Below, piece by piece: positions 1,365 through 9,977 of a stretch of DNA of 41,397 nucleotides. The stretch is from Pseudomonadota bacterium (GTDB lineage: Bacteria; Pseudomonadota; Gammaproteobacteria; Xanthomonadales; Xanthomonadaceae), in NCBI GenBank assembly GCA_030528565.1, contig JAUMYP010000017.1, positions 1-41,397 on the forward strand. Reading direction: 5' to 3'. Within the stretch, counting starts at the first letter, position 1, and each line of letters begins with the position of its first letter. Position numbers and translations under genes: made by a program. Under the pieces are notes generated by a model. The model had not been told where the DNA came from, searched no databases, and saw only the letters and a program-made list of their open reading frames with translations.

Positions 1365-1694
1365 ATGAAACGCTGGTACGGAAAAATTCTGGGCGCTTGT
1401 CTGGGCATGCTGCTGATGCGGGTCAATCCGCTGTTTGGCGCATTGCTGGGCCTGCTGCTGGGACATGCCTTCGATGCCGACTGGTTTGTGCGTGCCTCGC
1501 CTTATCGCGTGCTGGGCGTCAGCGCCGATGCCAGTGATGCCGAGGTCGAGCAGGCCTGGCGGCGGCTGATTTCCCAGTACCACCCGGACAAATACGTCAA
1601 TGCCGCCCCCGAATTGCGGGCACGCGCCGAGCGTGCTGCCCGCGATATCAATACCGCCTACGAAAAAATCCAGAAACTTCGGAAAAAATCCTGA
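1365..1694 (+). CDS. Short membrane-anchored J-domain protein, DjlA-like without the TerB domain
   Basis: The 109-residue protein has an N-terminal hydrophobic stretch at about residues 5-36, ending in [12 protein letters not shown], which resembles the N-terminal membrane anchor of DjlA. It passes directly into a J domain (about 45-109) with the HPD tripeptide at 73-75 (QYHPDKY). J domains stimulate the ATPase of DnaK-type Hsp70. Full-length DjlA (about 270 residues) has a TerB-like domain between anchor and J domain; here that domain is absent. The stop codon overlaps the rpe start (TGATG), so the two are probably co-translated. A longer open frame extends upstream across purC, but ATG 1365 is the first start that yields the anchor. 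Confidence 0.85.
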
Positions 1695-2368
1695 TGAGCC
1701 GTCAAAGCACTGTCATTGCCCCGTCCATCCTTTCTGCCGATTTCGCCCGTCTGGGCGAAGAAGTCCGCAACGTGCTCGAGGCCGGCGCCGACTGGGTGCA
1801 TTTCGATGTGATGGATAACCACTATGTGCCGAACCTCACCATCGGCCCGCTGGTCTGCGAGGCGCTGCGCAAGTACGGCATCACTGCCCCCATCGACGTG
1901 CATCTGATGGTGGAGCCGGTGGATGCCATCATCCCGATGTTCGCCAAGGCTGGCGCCACGCATATCAGCTTTCACCCGGAAGCCAGCCGCCATGTACATC
2001 GCAGCATCCAGCTCATCAAATCGCTGGGCTGCCAGGCCGGGCTGGTGCTGAACCCGGCCACCCCGGTGGAGGTGCTGGACTATGTGCTGGACGAGCTGGA
2101 CTATGTGCTGCTGATGTCGGTCAATCCCGGCTTTGGCGGGCAGGCGTTCATTCCATCCACGCTGGACAAGCTGCGCCGGGTACGTGAGCGCATTGATGCT
2201 TCGGGACGCGCCATCCGCCTGGAAATCGACGGTGGCGTCAAGCCTGACAATATCGCCGAAATCGCCGCCGCAGGCGCCGATACTTTCGTGGCAGGCTCGG
2301 CCATCTTTGGCCAGCCCGACTACCAGGCCATCATCAGCCGGATGAAGGCGGCGGTGGCTGCGGTGTGA
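1694..2368 (+). CDS. rpe: Ribulose-phosphate 3-epimerase
   Basis: This enzyme interconverts ribulose 5-phosphate and xylulose 5-phosphate in the pentose phosphate pathway (EC 5.1.3.1). The 224-residue TIM barrel shows the family blocks in order: [13 protein letters not shown] at the N-terminus, [34 protein letters not shown] and LEIDGGV, covering the metal-binding His/Asp residues and the phosphate-binding loop. Length and start are standard. Its ATG overlaps the stop of the J-protein gene. In Xanthomonadaceae rpe lies just upstream of trp genes, which helps to interpret what follows here. Confidence 0.96.
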
Positions 2369-2421
2369 TGGTTTTATCAGGACTCATGCTCTTGGTATCG
2401 GTGATGTGAATATGCCGCTGA

Positions 2422-2490
2422 TGGGACGAAACCATGAGCAAAGGCCGCGCGTTGTTCCGCGCCGTGGCAGAAGCTGCCAGGGGGCTGTGA
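2422..2490 (+). pseudogene. trpE: Remnant of the 3' end of trpE (anthranilate synthase component I)
   Basis: Twenty-two codons end in [18 protein letters not shown] and a TGA, preceded by Trp-Asp-Glu-Thr. This closely resembles the C-terminal helix of TrpE proteins (pattern W-x-E-T-x-x-K-x-R-A-x-x-R-A). The TGA is one base from the trpG GTG, the usual trpE-trpG spacing, and the AGGGGG that can serve as trpG ribosome binding site lies inside the remnant. An in-frame TGA at 2419-2421 closes the frame upstream, and no other TrpE sequence is visible between here and rpe. The rest of the gene, normally about 490 codons, is missing. The identification rests on a short match plus position. Confidence 0.7.
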
Positions 2491-2491
2491 C

Positions 2492-3070
2492 GTGATTTTG
2501 ATGATAGACAACTACGACAGCTTTACCTTCAACCTGGTGCAATACCTGCAAACCCTGGGTGCCGAGGTGCGAGTAGAGCGCAATGACGCGATGAGCGTGG
2601 CTGAAATCGAGCGCCTTGCGCCTGAAAAAATCGTGATTTCGCCAGGGCCTGGCACTCCGGACGAGGCTGGCGTGTCGATGCAGCTCATCCGGAAGCTGGG
2701 CAGCCATGTGCCGATACTGGGCGTATGCCTTGGGCATCAGGCCATCGGTCAGGTGTATGGCGGTCATGTCATTCGCGCCGGGCGCATCATGCACGGCAAG
2801 ACTTCCGCCATCCATCATCAGGGCAAGGGCGTGTTTTCCGGGCTGCCCGATGGCTACGAGGCCACCCGCTATCACTCGCTGGTGGTGGACAAGACCCGGC
2901 TGCCGGACTGTCTTGAAATCACCGCCTGGACAGAAAACCCGGATGGCTCGATGGAAGAAATCATGGGGCTGCGTCACCGCGAATATCCGGTGGAAGGCGT
3001 GCAGTTCCATCCCGAATCCATCCTGACCCAGCACGGCCATGCGCTGCTGCGCAATTTTCTGGAGTGCTGA
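2492..3070 (+). CDS. trpG: Glutamine amidotransferase, anthranilate synthase component II / PabA
   Basis: This class I glutamine amidotransferase supplies ammonia to TrpE (anthranilate) or PabB (aminodeoxychorismate for folate). The 192-residue protein is complete: [16 protein letters not shown] at the N-terminus, the oxyanion block [11 protein letters not shown], the nucleophile Cys79 in GVCLGHQ, and the His173/Glu175 pair in QFHPESIL. The GTG start at 2492 has AGGGGG eight bases upstream; an internal ATG at 2501 is possible. It is flanked by fragments of trpE and trpD, so its usual partner is gone from this site. An intact reading frame suggests selection, perhaps as PabA. It could be read from the J-protein/rpe transcript. 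Confidence 0.95.
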
Positions 3071-3072
3071 AC

Positions 3073-3216
3073 ATGCCGGTTACGCCACACCAAGCCCTGC
3101 AACGCAGCAGCGAGCACTGTGGAATATTTTTTGAAGCAACATCGGATTTGATGCGGGACACCATGTCTGTCCAGGATTTCGGTACAGCACGGGCTGCGAT
3201 ATTCTCGGCGGCATGA
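3073..3216 (+). pseudogene. trpD: Remnant of the 5' end of trpD (anthranilate phosphoribosyltransferase)
   Basis: A 47-codon frame begins two bases after the trpG stop. Its first residues, MPVTPHQALQRSSEH, followed by IFFEATSDLMRDTMS, resemble the N-terminus of xanthomonad TrpD (recalled as MPITPQQALQR..EHREIF...LMR..M). The similarity stops after about 32 residues; the remaining codons do not look like TrpD and run into a stop that overlaps the HAD gene start. TrpD proteins are normally about 340 residues, so more than 90% is missing, and no trpC is seen before the HAD gene. An alternative reading as a small unrelated peptide is less likely given the position after trpG. Confidence 0.68.
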
Positions 3217-3929
3217 TGAGCAATACAGCACAGGCCAGCGGTGAGCTGGCGGTCTTTGATTTTGACCACACTTTGTACGATGGCGATTCCTTTACCGATT
3301 TTCTGAAGTGGCGGATTGTGCGCAGCCCCTGGCGGGTATTGCTGGCGCTGCTGGTTGCGCCGCTGGCCGCGCCGATGATTGCCTTTTTGCCCACCCGCCG
3401 CCGCGGCATTTCCGCTTTTGTCTGGGTGGCGACGTTGGGGCTGCATCGCCGTCGTGACCTGAATGACCTGATTGCGGCCTATGTGCGCTGCAACCAGGAT
3501 GAAATCCGCAAGAAACTGCTGCCCATCGCGCTGCAAGTATTCCATCAGCATCGCCAGGCCGGTCACACCGTGATTGTCGCCACCGGCGCGCCGCCCGCGC
3601 TGGCGCGCGCCATTCTGGCTTTTGTCGCCCATCAAGATGTGCCAGTGATTGGTACCGAGGTCGGCCCCAAGTTCGGGGCGGTGGGTGCGCTGCGGCACTG
3701 CCATCATGAGATGAAGGTCAGGATGATACGCGAGGCCGGTTTTACCCAGCCCATCGCCTATGCCTATAGCGATAGCAGCGCCGACCTGCCACTGCTGGTG
3801 GCTGCGCAAAAGCCGGTGGTGGTCAACCCCAAAGCCGCGGCGGTGGCAATATTCCGCAAAAAACTGCCGCCCGCCACGCCGGTGCTCAACTGGGGCTGCC
3901 CGGGACGGGCGGGCGAGCCGGTGGGCTGA
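3213..3929 (+). CDS. HAD-superfamily phosphatase (HAD-IB, SerB/PgpC-like)
   Basis: The 238-residue protein has HAD motif I, FDFDHTLYDGDSF (nucleophile Asp16, acid/base Asp18), motif II in VIVATGAPPAL, a conserved Lys (EMKVRMI), and motif III/IV in YAYSDSSADLPLL. This arrangement is that of HAD-IB phosphatases such as SerB and phosphatidylglycerophosphatase C. A hydrophobic segment at about residues 35-60 (VLLALLVAPLAAPMIAFL) lies in the cap region and suggests membrane contact, which favours a lipid-phosphate substrate, though the substrate is not determined. The start overlaps the stop of the trpD remnant. It converges on the GNAT gene, with both stop codons sitting in one palindrome. Confidence 0.85.
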   Translation: MMSNTAQASGELAVFDFDHTLYDGDSFTDFLKWRIVRSPWRVLLALLVAPLAAPMIAFLPTRRRGISAFVWVATLGLHRRRDLNDLIAAYVRCNQDEIRKKLLPIALQVFHQHRQAGHTVIVATGAPPALARAILAFVAHQDVPVIGTEVGPKFGAVGALRHCHHEMKVRMIREAGFTQPIAYAYSDSSADLPLLVAAQKPVVVNPKAAAVAIFRKKLPPATPVLNWGCPGRAGEPVG

Positions 3930-3950
3930 GCGCCTTTGAGCAGGCGCTCA
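3927..3950. terminator. Hairpin between convergent HAD and GNAT genes
   Basis: TGAGCGCCT at 3927-3935 and AGGCGCTCA at 3942-3950 form a perfect 9-bp stem with a 6-base loop. The outer three bases of each arm are the TGA stop codons of the two converging genes. No T-run follows on either strand, so strength as an intrinsic terminator is uncertain. Confidence 0.5.
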
Positions 3951-4397
3951 GGCGCCCAGATATTTGACAAAGCGCAGGGTGCCGTCGCTATAGCCACAGG
4001 CGCGGTAAAACGCCTGCGCGTCCACGCGCTGCGAACCACTGGTGATTTCAAGGCGGGCAGCGCCGCCGACCCGGGCGCGGCGTTCGGCTTCGCGCAGCAG
4101 CTGCCGCCCCAGCCCTTTGCCTTGCGCTTCCGGGGTGACCACCATCGCGGTAATCCGGCAGGTGGTGGTGCCAAGCGGCAGGTAGTACATGAAGTCCAGC
4201 GCAATCAGGCCACAGGTCACCCCCTCGTGGCGCGCCAGAACCAGCGCCTGGCGGTCATTGGCGATGATGCTGTGGATGCGCTCGCTGGCATCCTCGCGGT
4301 CGCAGGGGTAGCCCAGCTCGGAAAGCAGCAGGGCAACATCGTCCGCGTCCATCAAGGTGGCGCAGCGCAAATCGACATTTTCCATTTCACCCTGCAT
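3948..4397 (-). CDS. GNAT-family N-acetyltransferase
   Basis: The 149-residue protein has the GNAT fold signature: an N-terminal strand (VDLRCATLMDADDVALLL), the central strand ITAMVVTPEAQGKGLGRQLL containing the acetyl-CoA pyrophosphate-binding motif (Q-x-x-G-x-G/A), and a C-terminal block with FYRACGY. It transfers an acetyl group to an amine; the acceptor is not predictable. The gene starts eleven bases after the clp stop on the same strand and is probably co-transcribed with clp. Confidence 0.88.
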   Translation of the reverse strand: MQGEMENVDLRCATLMDADDVALLLSELGYPCDREDASERIHSIIANDRQALVLARHEGVTCGLIALDFMYYLPLGTTTCRITAMVVTPEAQGKGLGRQLLREAERRARVGGAARLEITSGSQRVDAQAFYRACGYSDGTLRFVKYLGA

Positions 4398-4408
4398 GGG
4401 GTCTGTCC

Positions 4409-5110
4409 TCAGTTTTGTTGCCGGTAGATGACAATGGTTTTGCCGCGGGCATGCAGTTTGCCGTCGGTCTGCAATTTTTTCAGCACCCGTCCGGCCATCT
4501 CCCGCGAGCAGCCGACAAGGCGCGCCAGCTCCTGGCGTGATACCCGGATTTGCACGCCGTCGGGGTGGCTCATGGCATCGGGTTCTTCGGCCAGGTCATT
4601 CAATGTGCGGCTGATACGGTCGCTGACATCCAGGAACGCCAGACGGCTGGCCTTGCGGCTGGTGTCGCGCAAGCGGCGACTGAGCTGGTTGCCGATGCCA
4701 TACAAAAGCCTGGGCGCATCGGCAGCCAGGGCGCCAGTCAAAAGCTGCATGAATTCCCGATAGCCGATTTCGGCCATTTCGCAAGGGCTGCGGGTGCGCA
4801 GTATCACCTCGCGCTGCTGCGACTCGATGAACAACCCCATTTCGCCAATGAACTCGCCCGGGCCGAAATAGCCCAGAATCAGCTCGCGGCCATCGTCTTC
4901 TTCCACCAGGACGCTGACCGAGCCTTCAATCAGGTAGTACATGGTGTTGGCAGGGTCGCCAGGACGGAAAATATAGGTACGCGAGGGATAGCGCCGCTGT
5001 TGGGCGTGCGACAGGAATCGCTCAATGGTTGCGCCATCAGGCGCCAATGGGCTGTCTATGCGGCGCAGCGCGGTCTGGAGAGTAGGGGGAATCGTCATGA
5101 CCATGCCCAT
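4409..5110 (-). CDS. clp: Crp/Fnr-family transcription regulator, Clp-type
   Basis: The protein, about 233 residues, has a cyclic-nucleotide-binding beta-roll (about 30-125, with GEFIGEMGLF around residue 90), a long dimer helix (RRLRDTSRKASRLAFLDVSDRI) and a C-terminal winged helix-turn-helix (191-213, SRQELARLVGCSREMAGRVL). It matches what I recall of Xanthomonas Clp closely over its whole length; Clp is a global regulator of virulence and exoenzyme genes there and its DNA binding is inhibited by cyclic di-GMP. The open frame begins at a TTG at 5119; ATGs at 5110, 5104 and 5098 are all possible, none with a good ribosome binding site. A palindrome abuts the start. Confidence 0.93.
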   Translation of the reverse strand: MGMVMTIPPTLQTALRRIDSPLAPDGATIERFLSHAQQRRYPSRTYIFRPGDPANTMYYLIEGSVSVLVEEDDGRELILGYFGPGEFIGEMGLFIESQQREVILRTRSPCEMAEIGYREFMQLLTGALAADAPRLLYGIGNQLSRRLRDTSRKASRLAFLDVSDRISRTLNDLAEEPDAMSHPDGVQIRVSRQELARLVGCSREMAGRVLKKLQTDGKLHARGKTIVIYRQQN

Positions 5111-5112
5111 GA

Positions 5113-5126
5113 TTGCCAAATGGCAA
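5113..5126. promoter_or_regulatory. Palindrome immediately upstream of clp
   Basis: TTGCCAAATGGCAA is a 6-2-6 perfect inverted repeat lying directly before the clp ATG at 5110, in the 152-base divergent region between clp and speD. Its position suits an operator, possibly for feedback control of clp. It does not match the Crp consensus TGTGA-N6-TCACA, so the protein that binds it, if any, is unknown. Confidence 0.35.
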
Positions 5127-5262
5127 GATTAGTGGAGAGTGAGGGGCAGGGCAAATCTGATGGGCATCTATCGCCAGGGCAGATACACCTGAATTGTCCC
5201 CATGCAATAGCAGATGCCCCATAATGGTGGTTTGCAATCCTTACGTTCATGGAGTTCCGCCT

Positions 5263-6054
5263 GTGGTCAAGCCGCTGCCGCGTCTCAAGCTGCAAGGTTT
5301 CAACAACCTCACCAAATCGCTGTCGTTCAACATCTACGATGTTTGCTATGCCGCATCGGAAGAAGAGCGCCGTCGCTATATTGAATACATCGACGAGCAG
5401 TACGATGCTGACCGCCTGACCCAGATTCTGACTGATGTGGCCGAAATCATCGGCGCCAATATCCTCAATATCGCCCGTCAGGACTACGAGCCGCAGGGCG
5501 CGTCGGTCACCATTCTGATTTCCGAGGAGCCGGTCATCGACAAGGCCGATGCCAAGGGGGTGATTTCCGATGCGGTGGTCGCGCATCTGGACAAGTCGCA
5601 CATCACCGTGCACACCTACCCCGAAACCCATCCGGACAACGGCATTGCCACCTTCCGCGCCGATATCGACGTGTCCACCTGCGGGGTGATTTCACCGCTG
5701 AAGGCGCTGAACTACCTGATTGAGTCGCTGGAGTCGGACATCGTGGTGATGGACTACCGCGTGCGTGGCTTTACCCGCGATGTAAAGGGCAAAAAGCACT
5801 ACATCGACCACAAAATCAACTCTATCCAGGACTATCTGCACAAGAGCATCAAGTCCCGCTACGAAATGCTGGACGTGAACGTGTATCAGGAGAACCTGTT
5901 TCATACCAAGATGCACCTGAAAGAGTTCGACCTGGACAACTACCTGTTCGAGGAAAAGGCGCGCAACCTGTCCTTCAAGGAGCGCATGAAGATTGAGGCG
6001 CGTCTCAAGCGCGAGATTGAGGAGCTGTATCAGGGGCGCAATCTGGCCGACTGA
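5263..6054 (+). CDS. speD: S-adenosylmethionine decarboxylase proenzyme
   Basis: SpeD decarboxylates S-adenosylmethionine to give the aminopropyl donor for spermidine synthesis (EC 4.1.1.50). The protein is made as a proenzyme that cleaves itself to create a pyruvoyl cofactor. Here the cleavage site is Lys111-Ser112 in [13 protein letters not shown], and the blocks [20 protein letters not shown] and [14 protein letters not shown] are the E. coli-type family signature. From the GTG at 5263 the protein is 263 residues, close to the 264 of E. coli, and GGAG lies eight bases upstream. Earlier in-frame starts (5194) would add an unconserved tail. The gene is divergent from clp, as in Xanthomonas. 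Confidence 0.96.
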
Positions 6055-6055
6055 T

Positions 6056-6099
6056 GGCAAAACTTGCGTTTTGCCCGGAGGCGGGTATAATCCCGCCTC
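6056..6099 (+). promoter_or_regulatory. Promoter of rplM-rpsI with two adjacent hairpins
   Basis: TTGCGT at 6064-6069 and a perfect TATAAT at 6086-6091 are spaced by 16 bases. Two perfect 8-bp inverted repeats cover the site: GGCAAAAC/GTTTTGCC (6056-6075) overlaps the -35, and GAGGCGGG/CCCGCCTC (6078-6099) places the TATAAT exactly in its loop. The first could act as a weak end signal for speD. Confidence 0.7.
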
Positions 6100-6188
6100 T
6101 TTGCTGTACCCAACCCACAACGCGATGGCAAAGTTCCGTGCCGTTTGGCGCGCAATCAGCCCGACTATTTCCACAAAGTTGAGTTTTT

Positions 6189-6617
6189 ATGAAAACTTTT
6201 ACCGCCAAGAACGAGACCGTCCAGCGTGACTGGTACGTGGTCGATGCCGAAGGCAAGACCCTCGGCCGTCTCGCCGCAGAACTGGCTTACCGCCTGCGCG
6301 GCAAGCACAAGCCGGTTTACACCCCGCATGTTGACACCGGCGATTACATGGTCGTCATCAATGCCGAGAAAATCGCCGTCACCGGCAAAAAGCTCTCGGA
6401 CAAGAAATATCACCGCTTCACCGGCTATATCGGCAACCTCAAGACCGAAACCCTGGCCGAGGCGCTGGCGCGTCACCCCGAGCGCGTGATTGAAATCGCC
6501 GTCAAGGGCATGCTGCCGAAGAACCCGCTCGGCCGCGCCATGTACAAGAAGCTCAAGGTCTATGCTGGCCCCGAGCATCCGCACGCTGCCCAGCAGCCGC
6601 AGGTTCTGGATATCTAA
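6189..6617 (+). CDS. rplM: 50S ribosomal protein L13
   Basis: This 142-residue protein is an early-assembling component of the large ribosomal subunit. The family blocks are plain: [21 protein letters not shown] at the N-terminus, [29 protein letters not shown], and the signature [23 protein letters not shown] near the C-terminus. Length matches E. coli L13 (142). It lies twelve bases upstream of rpsI in the usual rplM-rpsI pair, transcribed from the promoter at about 6064-6091. The leader before the ATG is close to 95 bases, long enough for the feedback control by L13 known in E. coli. Confidence 0.98.
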
Positions 6618-6629
6618 GGTCTGACGATA

Positions 6630-7022
6630 ATGGCACTTCAACAGAATTACGGCACTGGCCGTCGCAAGTCTTCCACCGCCCGCGTGTTCCTGCGCAAGGG
6701 TTCGGGCAATATCACCATCAATGGCCGTCCGCTGGACGAATTCTTTGGCCGTGAAACCGCGCGCATGATTGTGCGCCAGCCGCTGGAACTGACCCAGTCG
6801 CTGGACAAGTTCGACGTGGTGGCAACCGCCACTGGCGGCGGCACCACTGGTCAGGCCGGTGCGGTGCGCCTGGGTATTGCCCGCGCATTGGTGGAATACG
6901 ACGAAACCCTGAAGGCCGAGCTGCGCAAGGCCGGTTTCATGACCCGCGATGCCCGCGAAGTGGAGCGCAAGAAGGTCGGCCTGCACAAGGCACGTCGCGC
7001 CACCCAGTTCTCCAAGCGTTAA
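6630..7022 (+). CDS. rpsI: 30S ribosomal protein S9
   Basis: This 130-residue protein belongs to the small-subunit head; its C-terminal tail reaches the P-site tRNA. Family features are [15 protein letters not shown] at the N-terminus, [23 protein letters not shown] in the middle, and the basic tail ending in [17 protein letters not shown], with the conserved terminal Ser-Lys-Arg. Length equals E. coli S9. It is the second gene of the rplM operon. No simple intrinsic terminator follows; instead a series of hairpins begins 62 bases downstream. Confidence 0.98.
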
Positions 7023-7069
7023 TCGCAGCGCCCGCTGGCAGTGTTGTGGCAGCTTGCATGAAGTATCTT

Positions 7070-7223
7070 AAGGAAGGTCTGAACAACGCCATCCTGGCGT
7101 TGCCAGCCCACGCCAAGTCCGGCACATGTCCGGACTTGGCTTACACGAATCAATCACGAGCATGATTGATTCGTGACGGGTCTCCATGACCCGTGAGGAG
7201 CCTCTGACTATTCAGAGGCTCCC
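7070..7223. repeat. Array of five perfect hairpins, possible miniature element
   Basis: Five consecutive perfect stem-loops fill this stretch: CAACGCCA/TGGCGTTG (7084-7102), an 11-bp stem (7112-7140), a 13-bp stem (7144-7175), ACGGGTC/GACCCGT (7176-7194) and an 11-bp stem (7197-7222). The outer ends are loosely inverted copies: GGAAGGTCTGAA at the left and, on the other strand, GGGAGCCTCTGAA at the right. No coding frame is evident. This looks like a repetitive palindromic or MITE-like unit, but a second copy is not visible in this window. It may also terminate the rplM-rpsI transcript. Confidence 0.6.
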
Positions 7224-7285
7224 CAAGTACACACGGCGCTGCCACGCCTTGCCAGCAAACACTGCTCTATAGCTGGGCAAACACT

Positions 7286-7313
7286 TTTGTTTGCAACGCA
7301 AAAGCAGTACAAT
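7286..7313 (+). promoter_or_regulatory. Likely promoter of tRNA-Gln
   Basis: TACAAT at 7308-7313 lies twelve bases before the mature tRNA 5' end, and TTTGTT at 7286-7291 is a fair -35 box at 16-base spacing. A small inverted repeat (CTTTTG/CAAAAG) covers the spacer. Confidence 0.5.
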
Positions 7314-7324
7314 CCACAGCCTCT

Positions 7325-7399
7325 AGCCCCGTCGCCAAGCGGTAAGGCACCTGACTCTGACTCAGGCATTCGGTGGTTCGAATCCATCCGGGGCTGCCA
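7325..7399 (+). tRNA. tRNA-Gln (anticodon CUG)
   Basis: A full cloverleaf is visible. The acceptor arms AGCCCCG (7325-7331) and CGGGGCT (7389-7395) pair fully. The anticodon stem CCTGA/TCAGG encloses a 7-base loop CTCTGAC with anticodon CTG, which reads the glutamine codon CAG. The T-loop is TTCGAAT. CCA is encoded at 7397-7399. The body closely resembles E. coli glutamine tRNA (TCGCCAAGCGGTAAGGCACC). Confidence 0.96.
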
Positions 7400-7434
7400 A
7401 ATCCGAATACTCGTCCCGTGCGAGAACTCCGGTC

Positions 7435-7463
7435 AAAAAGCCCGCCTTCCGGTGGGCTTTTTT
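7435..7463 (+). terminator. Intrinsic terminator after tRNA-Gln
   Basis: GCCCGCC (7440-7446) pairs with GGTGGGC (7451-7457), with one G-T pair and a 4-base loop, followed by six T and preceded by five A on the other side. Confidence 0.9.
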
Positions 7464-7491
7464 CGTTGCCTTGCAGGAGTTTCCCGTAGCG

Positions 7492-8235
7492 ATGTTCCAG
7501 CCGCCGTTTTCAACGCCCGCCTCATTGATGGCTGATATCCGTGCGCAGGGCTATGCGCTGCTGGCGCCGCAGGATGTGGCAAGTCTGGCGGGGGTGACGG
7601 CAGCGCAATTAGAGGCGCTGCAACCTGCCTGGGAGGATTTGCCGCCGGATGAATATCTGCGCGATGGCGGCCGTTATCGCTCGCGCCGTCATGCCAGCTA
7701 TCACTATCAGGCGGGTGTGCTGCAAGATGTGCCGCACCGCGCCCACTGGCAGTCGCTCGAATACAACGCCCTGCATGGCGGCATGCAACGCTGGTTTGCG
7801 CCGGTAACGGACAGCACACGCTGCTTGCCAGCCTGGGAAAAGCTGATTGTCGGTGTTGGCAAGATTTGCGATGAAATCGCAGGCACAAGGCGCTGGTCGG
7901 TGGAGGCGCACCAGTTCCGCATTGATACCGGCGATGGCATTGGCCGTCCCACACCTGAGGGCGCACACCGCGATGGCGTGGATTTTGTCGCGGTCTTCTT
8001 GCTGGCAAGACAGGCCATCAAGGGCGGTGAAACCCGCGTATTCGAGGCCGATGGCCCGGCGGGGCGGCGTTTTACCCTGGAATCCCCCTGGAGCCTGCTG
8101 CTGATGGATGATGCCCGGGTGATTCATGAGTCCACTCCGATTCAGCCGGAACAGCCGGGGGTGCTGGGTTACCGCGATACCCTGGTGCTGACCTATCGCG
8201 CCGGTGGCTTTCAGGATGAAGTCCCTGCCGCTTGA
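7492..8235 (+). CDS. Fe(II)/2-oxoglutarate-dependent oxygenase family protein
   Basis: The 247-residue protein carries a candidate facial triad of non-haem iron oxygenases: His159 and Asp161 in GAHRDGVDFVAVF, and His212 in ARVIHES; Arg228 or Arg236 (YRDTLVLTYR) could bind 2-oxoglutarate. The block layout resembles the 2OG-Fe_Oxy_2 family, which includes amino-acid hydroxylases such as isoleucine dioxygenases. The substrate is unknown. ATG 7492 is chosen over a TTG at 7471, since AGGAG lies between them. It is 44 bases upstream of the fumarylacetoacetase-like gene and may share its transcript, which hints at a link to amino-acid metabolism. Confidence 0.78.
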   Translation: MFQPPFSTPASLMADIRAQGYALLAPQDVASLAGVTAAQLEALQPAWEDLPPDEYLRDGGRYRSRRHASYHYQAGVLQDVPHRAHWQSLEYNALHGGMQRWFAPVTDSTRCLPAWEKLIVGVGKICDEIAGTRRWSVEAHQFRIDTGDGIGRPTPEGAHRDGVDFVAVFLLARQAIKGGETRVFEADGPAGRRFTLESPWSLLLMDDARVIHESTPIQPEQPGVLGYRDTLVLTYRAGGFQDEVPAA

Positions 8236-8279
8236 GTGGCCGGGCATTACAATGTATCCAACTCATTTCTGGAGCTTGC

Positions 8280-9269
8280 ATGAAACTTGGTTCTCTCAAA
8301 GAAGGTGGCCGCGACGGTACCCTGATTGTCGTTTCCCGTGACCTGGCGCGCGCCGTGCGTGCCACCGGCATCGCTGCTACCTTGCAGGCTGCACTGGAGG
8401 ACTGGAGCAATACCGCGCCGCGCCTGAATGCGCTGTACCAGTCCTTGAACGCAGGCACGGCAGAAGGCGCGTTCGATATCGACATGAAGGCGCTGGCCGC
8501 GCCCCTGCCGCGCGCTTACGAGTTTGTTGATGGCAGCGCCTATCTGCCGCATGTGGAGCGTGTACGCCGTGCCCGTGGCGCGGAAGTGCCGGAAAGTTTC
8601 TATGTGGACCCGCTGATGTATCAGGCGGTCAGTGCCGGCTTCTACGGCCCGCGCGATGCGGTAAAAGTGGTCAGCGAAGACTACGGCATTGACCTTGAAG
8701 CCGAAATCGTCGTCATCACCGATGATGTGCCGATGGCCGTCACAGCGGAGCAGGCCGCCGCCCATATCCAGCTGATTGGCCTGGTCAACGATGTCTCGCT
8801 GCGCAACCTGATTCCGCCGGAGCTGGCCAAGGGCTTTGGCTTTCTGCAATCCAAGCCGCGCTCGGCGCTCTCGCCGGTATTCGTTACCCCGGACGAGCTG
8901 GGCGATGCCTGGCAGGACTGCAAGGTGCATCTGCCGCTGCTCACCCATATCAACGGCAAATGGTTTGGTGCGCCGGAGGCCGGCGTGGACATGCAGTTCA
9001 ACTTCGCGCAACTGGTGGCGCATGCGGCCAAGACCCGGCCGCTGTCGGCAGGCACCATTGTCGGCTCCGGCACCATCGCCAATGAGGACACCGCCAAGGG
9101 CGCTTCCTGCTTTGCCGAGCAACGCACCGTGGAAACCCTGCGCGATGGCAAGCCGTCCACGCCGTTCATGTCGTTTGGCGATGTGGTGCGTATTGAAATG
9201 AAAGACCGCGATGGCCGTGATATTTTCGGCGCCATCGAGCAAGTCATCGAGCGCCAAAGCGCGCCGTAA
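8280..9269 (+). CDS. Fumarylacetoacetate hydrolase family protein (probable fumarylacetoacetase)
   Basis: The 329-residue protein belongs to the FAH superfamily: the metal-binding acidic block YGIDLEAEIVVITDDVPM, the stretch LIGLVNDVSLRNL, GFLQSKPRSALSPVFVTP, and GTIVGSGTIANEDTAKGASC with the conserved Gly-Ser-Gly-Thr turn. Probable reaction: hydrolysis of fumarylacetoacetate to fumarate and acetoacetate, the last step of tyrosine breakdown. ATG 8280 follows TGGAG at good spacing; an earlier frame start at 8232 overlaps the previous gene and is unlikely. The adjacent maiA gene makes the tyrosine assignment strong, although this subgroup also contains other acylpyruvate-type hydrolases. Confidence 0.87.
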   Translation: MKLGSLKEGGRDGTLIVVSRDLARAVRATGIAATLQAALEDWSNTAPRLNALYQSLNAGTAEGAFDIDMKALAAPLPRAYEFVDGSAYLPHVERVRRARGAEVPESFYVDPLMYQAVSAGFYGPRDAVKVVSEDYGIDLEAEIVVITDDVPMAVTAEQAAAHIQLIGLVNDVSLRNLIPPELAKGFGFLQSKPRSALSPVFVTPDELGDAWQDCKVHLPLLTHINGKWFGAPEAGVDMQFNFAQLVAHAAKTRPLSAGTIVGSGTIANEDTAKGASCFAEQRTVETLRDGKPSTPFMSFGDVVRIEMKDRDGRDIFGAIEQVIERQSAP

Positions 9270-9323
9270 TCACGCACGATGCAGGCACCCGGTGGGCGCC
9301 TGCTTGCTTTGAGAGCCAACCCC

Positions 9324-9977
9324 ATGTCCGAGCTGGTTTTGTATTCCTATTGGCGCTCCAGCGCCGCCTACCGCGTGCGCATTGGCCTGAACCTGAAGTC
9401 ACTGCCGTACACGCAAAAGCATGTGCACTTGCTGCGTGATGGCGGTGAGCAGCGCACTGCCGCCTATCGTGCACTGAATCCGCAAGCCCTGGTGCCGACC
9501 TTGCAGCATGGGAATGTGGTGCTGAGCCAATCGCTGGCGATTCTGGAATACCTTGACGATATCCACCCCGAGCCTGCCCTGCTGCCAAAGGATGCCGCAG
9601 GCCGTGCCCGCGTACGCGCATTGGCGCAACTGGTGGCCTGCGATATTCACCCGCTCAACAATCTGCGCGTGGGGCAGTATCTGAAAGCCGAATACGCACT
9701 GGCGCAGACGGCGGTGGAAGACTGGATGCGCCACTGGATGCACGAAGGCTTTACCGCGATGCAAACCGCACTGGCACAAAGCCCGGCAACAGGCGCGTTC
9801 TGCCATGGCGATACACCGACGCTGGCCGATATCTGCCTGATTCCACAGCTTTACAACGCACACCGCTTTGGCCTGGATATGGCGGCATATCCCACGCTCA
9901 GCGCGATTGAGAACCGCTGCCTTGCCCTGCCAGCCTTCGCTGCTGCCCGGCCAGAAAACCAGCCGGATGCAGCATGA
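9324..9977 (+). CDS. maiA: Maleylacetoacetate isomerase (zeta-class glutathione transferase)
   Basis: This glutathione-dependent enzyme converts maleylacetoacetate to fumarylacetoacetate (EC 5.2.1.2). The 217-residue protein has the zeta-class glutathione-binding motif near the N-terminus, YWRSSAAYRVRIGLNLK (family consensus SSCS/AxRVRIAL), then NPQALVPTLQHG and LSQSLAILEYLDD, which bind glutathione, and the C-terminal helical block GDTPTLADICLIPQLYNAHRFG. The usual cysteine in the first motif is replaced by Ala, which occurs in bacterial members. It follows the hydrolase gene by 54 bases, giving the two last steps of homogentisate breakdown in reverse order. Confidence 0.92.
   Translation: MSELVLYSYWRSSAAYRVRIGLNLKSLPYTQKHVHLLRDGGEQRTAAYRALNPQALVPTLQHGNVVLSQSLAILEYLDDIHPEPALLPKDAAGRARVRALAQLVACDIHPLNNLRVGQYLKAEYALAQTAVEDWMRHWMHEGFTAMQTALAQSPATGAFCHGDTPTLADICLIPQLYNAHRFGLDMAAYPTLSAIENRCLALPAFAAARPENQPDAA

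Follow-up and report, generated by a model that had tools for sequence, protein, structure and literature searches.

A whole trpG among the remnants of a tryptophan operon in a Xanthomonadaceae genome

Why does trpG remain whole where the genes on both of its sides have been reduced to fragments? The locus that raises this question lies in the window, by which we mean the whole stretch of 41,397 nucleotides analyzed here, corresponding to contig C45 of a draft genome of 2.25 Mb (G000; 71 contigs; stated completeness 99.98%). We favor, with a probability of about 0.88, the reading that the locus represents the ruins of trpEGDC in a lineage devoid of the tryptophan pathway, where trpG was spared because PabB needs it. 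According to this reading, TrpG would be the only glutamine amidotransferase for both anthranilate synthase (TrpE) and aminodeoxychorismate synthase (PabB). Tryptophan from outside would have freed trpE, trpD and trpC for deletion, together with trpF, trpB and trpA of another locus. The gene trpG could not be deleted because PabB would still need it to make p-aminobenzoate for folate, and it would now be a pabA in function. We infer the pairing of TrpG with PabB, the order of the loss events and the outside source of tryptophan, whereas the remnants, the deletions, the absences and the constraint on trpG were observed.

Two deletions, one on either side of trpG

The order rpe-yegS-trpE-trpG-trpD-trpC-HAD-clp-speD is shared by three sister species of the same genus (G005, G012 and G009), as seen by blastn collinearity and gene by gene for G005, and their TrpG is 92-96% identical to that of the window. 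A preliminary description of the locus had placed rpe, trpE, trpG, trpD, trpC and clp near one another in relatives, which is what these three genomes exhibit. The complete order in G005 is purC(-), a dnaJ-like gene, rpe, yegS, trpE, trpG, trpD, trpC, a HAD-IB hydrolase gene, a GNAT gene(-), clp(-) and speD. Its yegS encodes the lipid kinase YegS (NF009602, 369.9 bits, cut-off 284) and its trpE is recognized by TIGR00564 (551.4 bits, cut-off 517.7), whereas trpD, trpC and trpG were named from Pfam or NCBIfam matches at the locus, and purC, dnaJ, rpe, GNAT, clp and speD bear the names that we presume from the appearance of the sequences. In a tree of four neighboring proteins, G000 is the sister of G005 and G012 (support of 0.958 for the latter pair and of 0.996 for all three).

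When compared to G005 by blastn, the first 8 kb of the window form four collinear blocks separated by three breaks, two of which are located at trp genes: 2372|2421, where 2449 bp of G005 face 48 bp in the window, and 3165|3187, where 1714 bp face 21 bp. Both trp breaks recur at identical positions in the comparison to G012, whereas that to G009 places them at 2370|2421 on the left and 3155|3192 on the right. Two deletions flanking trpG, as the preliminary description proposed, are thus borne out by the breaks, the remnants being located where the relatives have intact genes, and the left deletion also took yegS.

The left flank is formed by rpe, presumably encoding ribulose-phosphate 3-epimerase (1694..2368, + strand, stop TGA at 2366-2368), an open reading frame collinear with that of the relatives and 97% identical in amino acids to G005. 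The first junction follows (2373..2420, +), where 48 bp replace the 2449 bp of G005 that comprise all of yegS and all of trpE but its end. This 48-bp filler does not match the missing G005 segment significantly (42 of 300 shuffles score as high). Homology to the relatives restarts at 2421 with a trpE remnant (2421..2490, +) consisting of the last 22 codons or so and the stop, identified by blastn and by alignment to relatives. It matches G010 over 75 bp (84%, E 2.6e-16, extending 5 bp into trpG) and G008 over 70 bp (86%, E 2.6e-16), and its last 21 codons, closed by a stop at 2488-2490, present two residue differences from the TrpE of G005. The piece before trpG, which had been likened to the TrpE C-terminus, is therefore just that. 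Chance matches were also considered as an origin of the remnants and were ruled out by the blastn E-values and the collinearity.

As read from the sequence, the trpE remnant harbors AGGGGG (2479..2484, +), a likely ribosome binding site of trpG, which falls in a segment of 33 bp spanning the trpG start (GCTGCC...GATGAT) and found unchanged in G005 and G012. The remnant does not change visibly faster than intact trpE (2.0-2.5 versus 0-2.5 nonsynonymous differences, over 21 codons only). Such slow change fits, without proving, a role as the ribosome binding site of trpG; the earlier proposal that the remnant was kept for this site, which has the motif itself and the lack of faster amino-acid change in its favor, is plausible but weakly supported.

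On the right side, the first 31 codons of trpD remain in a decayed state (3073..3165, +), as identified by blastn and alignment. They read MPVTPHQALQRSSEHCGIFFEATSDLMRDTM, aligned to the TrpD N-terminus of a relative, and their DNA is 77% identical to G009 over 105 bp (E 1.7e-12, blastn), the first 16 bp of which are the end of trpG. In frame with this piece comes a trpC remnant (3166..3216, +) formed by the last 16 codons and a stop TGA at 3214-3216. Positions 3166-3213 read SVQDFGTARAAIFSAA, which lines up with the 16 C-terminal residues of the G005 TrpC, RADDPGQALAAIFSAP. The stop overlaps the ATG of the HAD-IB family hydrolase gene on the right flank (3213..3929, +; TIGR01488, 50.5 bits, cut-off 45), as trpC does in G005. 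Taken alone, the 21 bp at 3166-3186 that replace 1714 bp of G005 do not significantly resemble the DNA that was deleted (100 of 300 shuffles reach their score). Their assignment to trpC thus follows from reading frame and position only, and trpC homology is firm from 3187 on (blastn). The second deletion thus took the middle of trpD-trpC and left 31 trpD codons fused in frame with the 16 final codons of trpC. Both short fragments of the preliminary description do resemble TrpE and TrpD, and its claim of remnants stands. It had also described about 32 TrpD-like residues followed by a loss of the match; the TrpD part was correct (31 codons), but the frame does not lose its match, as it runs into the end of trpC. 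Likewise, the statement that no trpC follows is true of the whole gene but missed this third remnant.

The trpD-trpC remnant (3073-3216) is an in-frame fusion of 47 codons, a join that is expected in frame in 1 of 3 cases by chance. As its stop still overlaps the HAD start, translational coupling from trpG to the HAD gene could be kept. The third break in the comparison to G005 (7026|7279) lies outside the trp finding: the window presents 252 bp (7027-7278) just before a tRNA-Gln (7325-7399), and the corresponding gap between matching blocks is about 43 bp in G005 and nearly nil in G012.

A constrained gene beside a decaying one

Between the remnants, trpG (or pabA) encodes a glutamine amidotransferase of 192 residues (2492..3070, +) in a reading frame without stop or frameshift, as whole as first described. 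The protein is recognized by TIGR00566 (269.1 bits, cut-off 121.05), which covers residues 1-191 of 192, and retains Cys79, His173 and Glu175, which we take to be the catalytic triad, in the motifs GVCLGHQ and QFHPES. In a database scan, the best 80 of 585 relatives were at most 81% identical to it, the best ones being found in Xanthomonadaceae.

The trpD remnant presents a pN/pS of 0.41-0.68, versus 0.02-0.06 between relatives, and intact trpD exhibits only one or two nonsynonymous differences among the three relatives over these 31 codons. Compared to G005, trpG accumulated 13.2 nonsynonymous differences over 437.3 sites and the trpD remnant 14.5 over 74.0 sites (Fisher p 2.4e-6); the same contrast yields p 1.5e-5 against G012 and 1.6e-4 against G009, all p-values being based on rounded counts with sites treated as independent. 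Since the two sequences are two bases apart, a regional difference in mutation rate is an unlikely cause. Purifying selection thus acts on trpG next to a decaying trpD remnant.

These figures bear on the proposal that trpG is a functionless late survivor that merely has not been deleted so far. The losses are confined to the G000 lineage among the sampled sisters and the remnants are still recognizable, so that the decay is not ancient. Moreover, the pairwise dN/dS of trpG reaches 0.092-0.121 for pairs with G000, somewhat above the 0.047-0.088 found among relatives, which suggests that constraint may be slightly relaxed in G000. Nevertheless, a functionless survivor is hardly compatible with a remnant two bases away that is so much richer in nonsynonymous differences than a trpG free of stops and frameshifts, nor with the retention of a lone trpG in two other genomes of the genus (see below), and we consider it very improbable.

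In the TrpG tree, G000 groups with G005 (0.805), in contrast to the four-protein tree. Synonymous distance among the sisters also varies strongly from gene to gene, the dS between G005 and G012 being 0.012 in rpe and 0.358 in trpG (window 1694-3067 versus L170-L172). These discrepancies point to possible recombination among the sisters and make any dating of the losses tentative.

Absence of the tryptophan pathway and the probable partner left to TrpG

Family searches were performed in G000 and 40 relatives, i.e., 41 genomes, and all 14 control genomes gave a match for each family (for trpB, 13 of them exceeded the cut-off). The trpD family (PF00591) was found in 40 of the 41 genomes, only G000 being without a match; trpC (PF00218) in 38, with no match in G000, G010 (83% complete) and G023 (72%); trpA (PF00290) in 39, with none in G000 and G029; trpF (PF00697) in 38, with none in G000, G023 and G029; and trpB (TIGR00263) in 40, over the cut-off in 38, with none in G000. 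All five families (trpD, C, F, B and A) are thus unmatched in G000 and in no other of the 41 genomes. Similarly, the chorismate-binding domain (PF00425) occurs once in G000 and twice in all 16 relatives of the same genus (outside the genus, once each in G020 and G039, and in three rows, two of them partial, in G029), and no TrpE is found among the chorismate-binding matches of G000.

A second eroded trp locus was identified on another contig of G000 (C58, L216, about 5700-7400), which matches on both sides a 13-kb stretch around trpF-trpB-trpA in G012. It retains two trpF pieces of 92 bp and 181 bp (88% and 86% identical to G012), whose coding part is interrupted by at least one stop, and a 3' piece of trpA, matched by blastn in all three relatives and by tblastn at E 1.4e-4. 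No trpB piece was found at this locus, the best tblastn hit of TrpB having an E of 1.3. The remnants at both places indicate that both trp loci were eroded by several separate deletions. Beside the second locus, the stretch 4358-7312 of G012 (L199), between a glmM-like gene and trpA, holds genes that resemble, by their appearance, those of a lipoprotein signal peptidase, a metal-transport protein and a MerR-type regulator; it has no match in the genome of the window except one of 45 bp elsewhere.

As the assembly is a draft of 71 contigs, trpE, trpD and trpC might be present in the cell and misassembled or lost with missing contigs. However, both eroded loci are internal to their contigs, the five other trp genes are unmatched by their families, TrpE is absent, the stated completeness is nearly total and the remnants bear substitutions that the three closest relatives lack. 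We thus judge an assembly artefact to be extremely improbable; with six separate absences and remnants at two contig-internal loci, a trp gene hidden in a gap of the draft is very unlikely. Tryptophan auxotrophy of G000 is strongly predicted from the gene content. The preliminary description suspected such a need for tryptophan and noted that full trpE, trpD and trpC genes elsewhere would remove it: none were found in the draft genome, where the trp genes other than trpG are unmatched save for remnants and pabB is intact.

The sole chorismate-binding gene of G000 encodes a PabB of 464 residues (NF006563, 626.3 bits, cut-off 514), adjoined by a PabC of 271 residues (TIGR03461, 203.7 bits, cut-off 176.85). 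This PabB falls just short of another PabB model (TIGR01824, 399 bits, cut-off 408.55), and its closest solved relative is the aminodeoxychorismate synthase 4grh (525.9 bits), presumably the enzyme of Stenotrophomonas maltophilia, which also presents PIAGT rather than PIKGT. The possibility that this enzyme is a TrpE, in view of its PIAGT motif, was rejected: it exceeds the NF006563 cut-off, is below every TrpE cut-off (25 of 26 models listed) and adjoins pabC. PabB of the PIAGT type reportedly uses two ammonia per product; if so, an amidotransferase would be more, not less, important to it.

Four genes of G000 contain a GATase domain, those of TrpG, GuaA, CarA and PyrG; a second PabA was sought among them and rejected, the other three being the latter enzymes. 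At least one TrpG-type match above 150 bits is present in 40 of the 41 genomes (exactly one in 38, two in G002 and G011, none in G023). Each of G005, G012 and G009 has a single one facing both TrpE and a second chorismate-binding gene, whose neighbors are shared with the PabB of G000. Given a sole TrpG/PabA-type amidotransferase and an intact pabB-pabC, TrpG most likely now serves only PabB. Such a partnership, put forward in the preliminary description as something TrpG could do, is well supported by the gene content, together with the constraint on trpG and the decay of the trpD remnant. As the pairing is deduced from sequence, TrpG might instead have been retained for another partner, e.g., an unrecognized chorismate enzyme, but the single chorismate-binding enzyme that PF00425 finds in the genome is PabB, which leaves only a very slight chance for this explanation.

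A TrpG common to both pathways is a known principle, of which the G000 locus is a clean new case. In Bacillus subtilis, an amphibolic trpG reportedly lies in the folate operon, one glutamine amidotransferase serving both anthranilate and aminodeoxychorismate synthases, as is proposed for TrpG here; however, tryptophan synthesis is reportedly intact in that species, whereas the trpG of G000 lies in the ruins of a trp operon, with only the folate role possible. In Acinetobacter baumannii, trpG is likewise named for both pathways, being annotated as "para-aminobenzoate/anthranilate synthase glutamine amidotransferase component," but the tables of that source display no trp-gene decay (PMC12604733). 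Piecewise loss of the trp pathway is described for the insect symbiont Karelsulcia-DH, where trpG is truncated along with trpE, trpD, trpA and trpB and thus decays with the rest, whereas in G000 trpG alone is whole (PMC12016543). A Sargasso Sea paper states that trpG and pabA are indistinguishable without an adjacent trp or pab gene (PMC2395257). No publication on this locus was found in the literature searched, which covered few subscription journals. The locus represents a natural experiment on a two-pathway gene, six other trp genes and yegS being gone while the shared subunit is still selected; intact sister species allow comparison and the same genus provides a second lone-trpG case. It is also a warning for annotation pipelines, as the "trpG" of G000 is no evidence of tryptophan synthesis.

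Lone trpG and a divergent trp cluster within the genus

A lone trpG of 192 codons is also found between rpe and the HAD gene in G002 (L180, about 8808-9374) and G011 (L181, about 8486-9052), where yegS, trpE, trpD and trpC are absent from the surrounding 18 kb (tblastn, E 1e-6). Between these two genes, the uncorrected nonsynonymous/synonymous ratio is 0.14 over 186 codons, with synonymous sites near saturation. G002 and G011 group apart from the G000 group in the four-protein tree, and the other members of the G000 group keep the native operon, so that their case is a separate event from that in G000. Their native TrpG has a support of 0.161 above it in the TrpG tree, so that vertical descent is suggested by the rpe-HAD position, not by the tree.

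Both genomes hold elsewhere a divergent trp cluster, whose TrpG is 48% identical to that of the window (G002). This trpEGDCFBA cluster, present in part of the genus (e.g., G006, L183, about 1877-8311), shows 34-38% identity in TrpE, TrpD and TrpC and a different arrangement; its trpF was named by appearance and from weak PF00697 matches there in G002, G004, G014 and G015. The low identity and the arrangement suggest that the operon was probably acquired by transfer. A search of plasmid records did not reveal its source, as each of the 130 records matched reached less than 60% identity to the TrpB of G006 at its best place.

In G004, G006, G007, G014 and G015, the interval from rpe to the HAD gene gave no tblastn hit to trpE, G, D or C and instead contains about 3 kb of other DNA (in G006, presumably a response regulator and a sensor kinase, by their appearance); G001, without an rpe match, is outside this comparison. 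These five genomes and G001 each yield a single TrpG-type match above 150 bits, that of the divergent operon, so that the native trpG is replaceable when another one is present.

It is conceivable, although we regard it as rather unlikely, that the genus repeatedly loses and sometimes regains tryptophan synthesis. Native trpEDC would decay while folate synthesis holds trpG, and a divergent trpEGDCFBA would arrive by transfer in some lineages; the native trpG would then be lost where the new TrpG serves PabB and would stay where it does not (G002 and G011). The window would represent an intermediate of this cycle of loss and regain, the shared subunit deciding which genes may go.

In G003 (L176, 8534-15263), about 6.7 kb separate trpD from trpC, which are close together in the other compared relatives that hold both natively.
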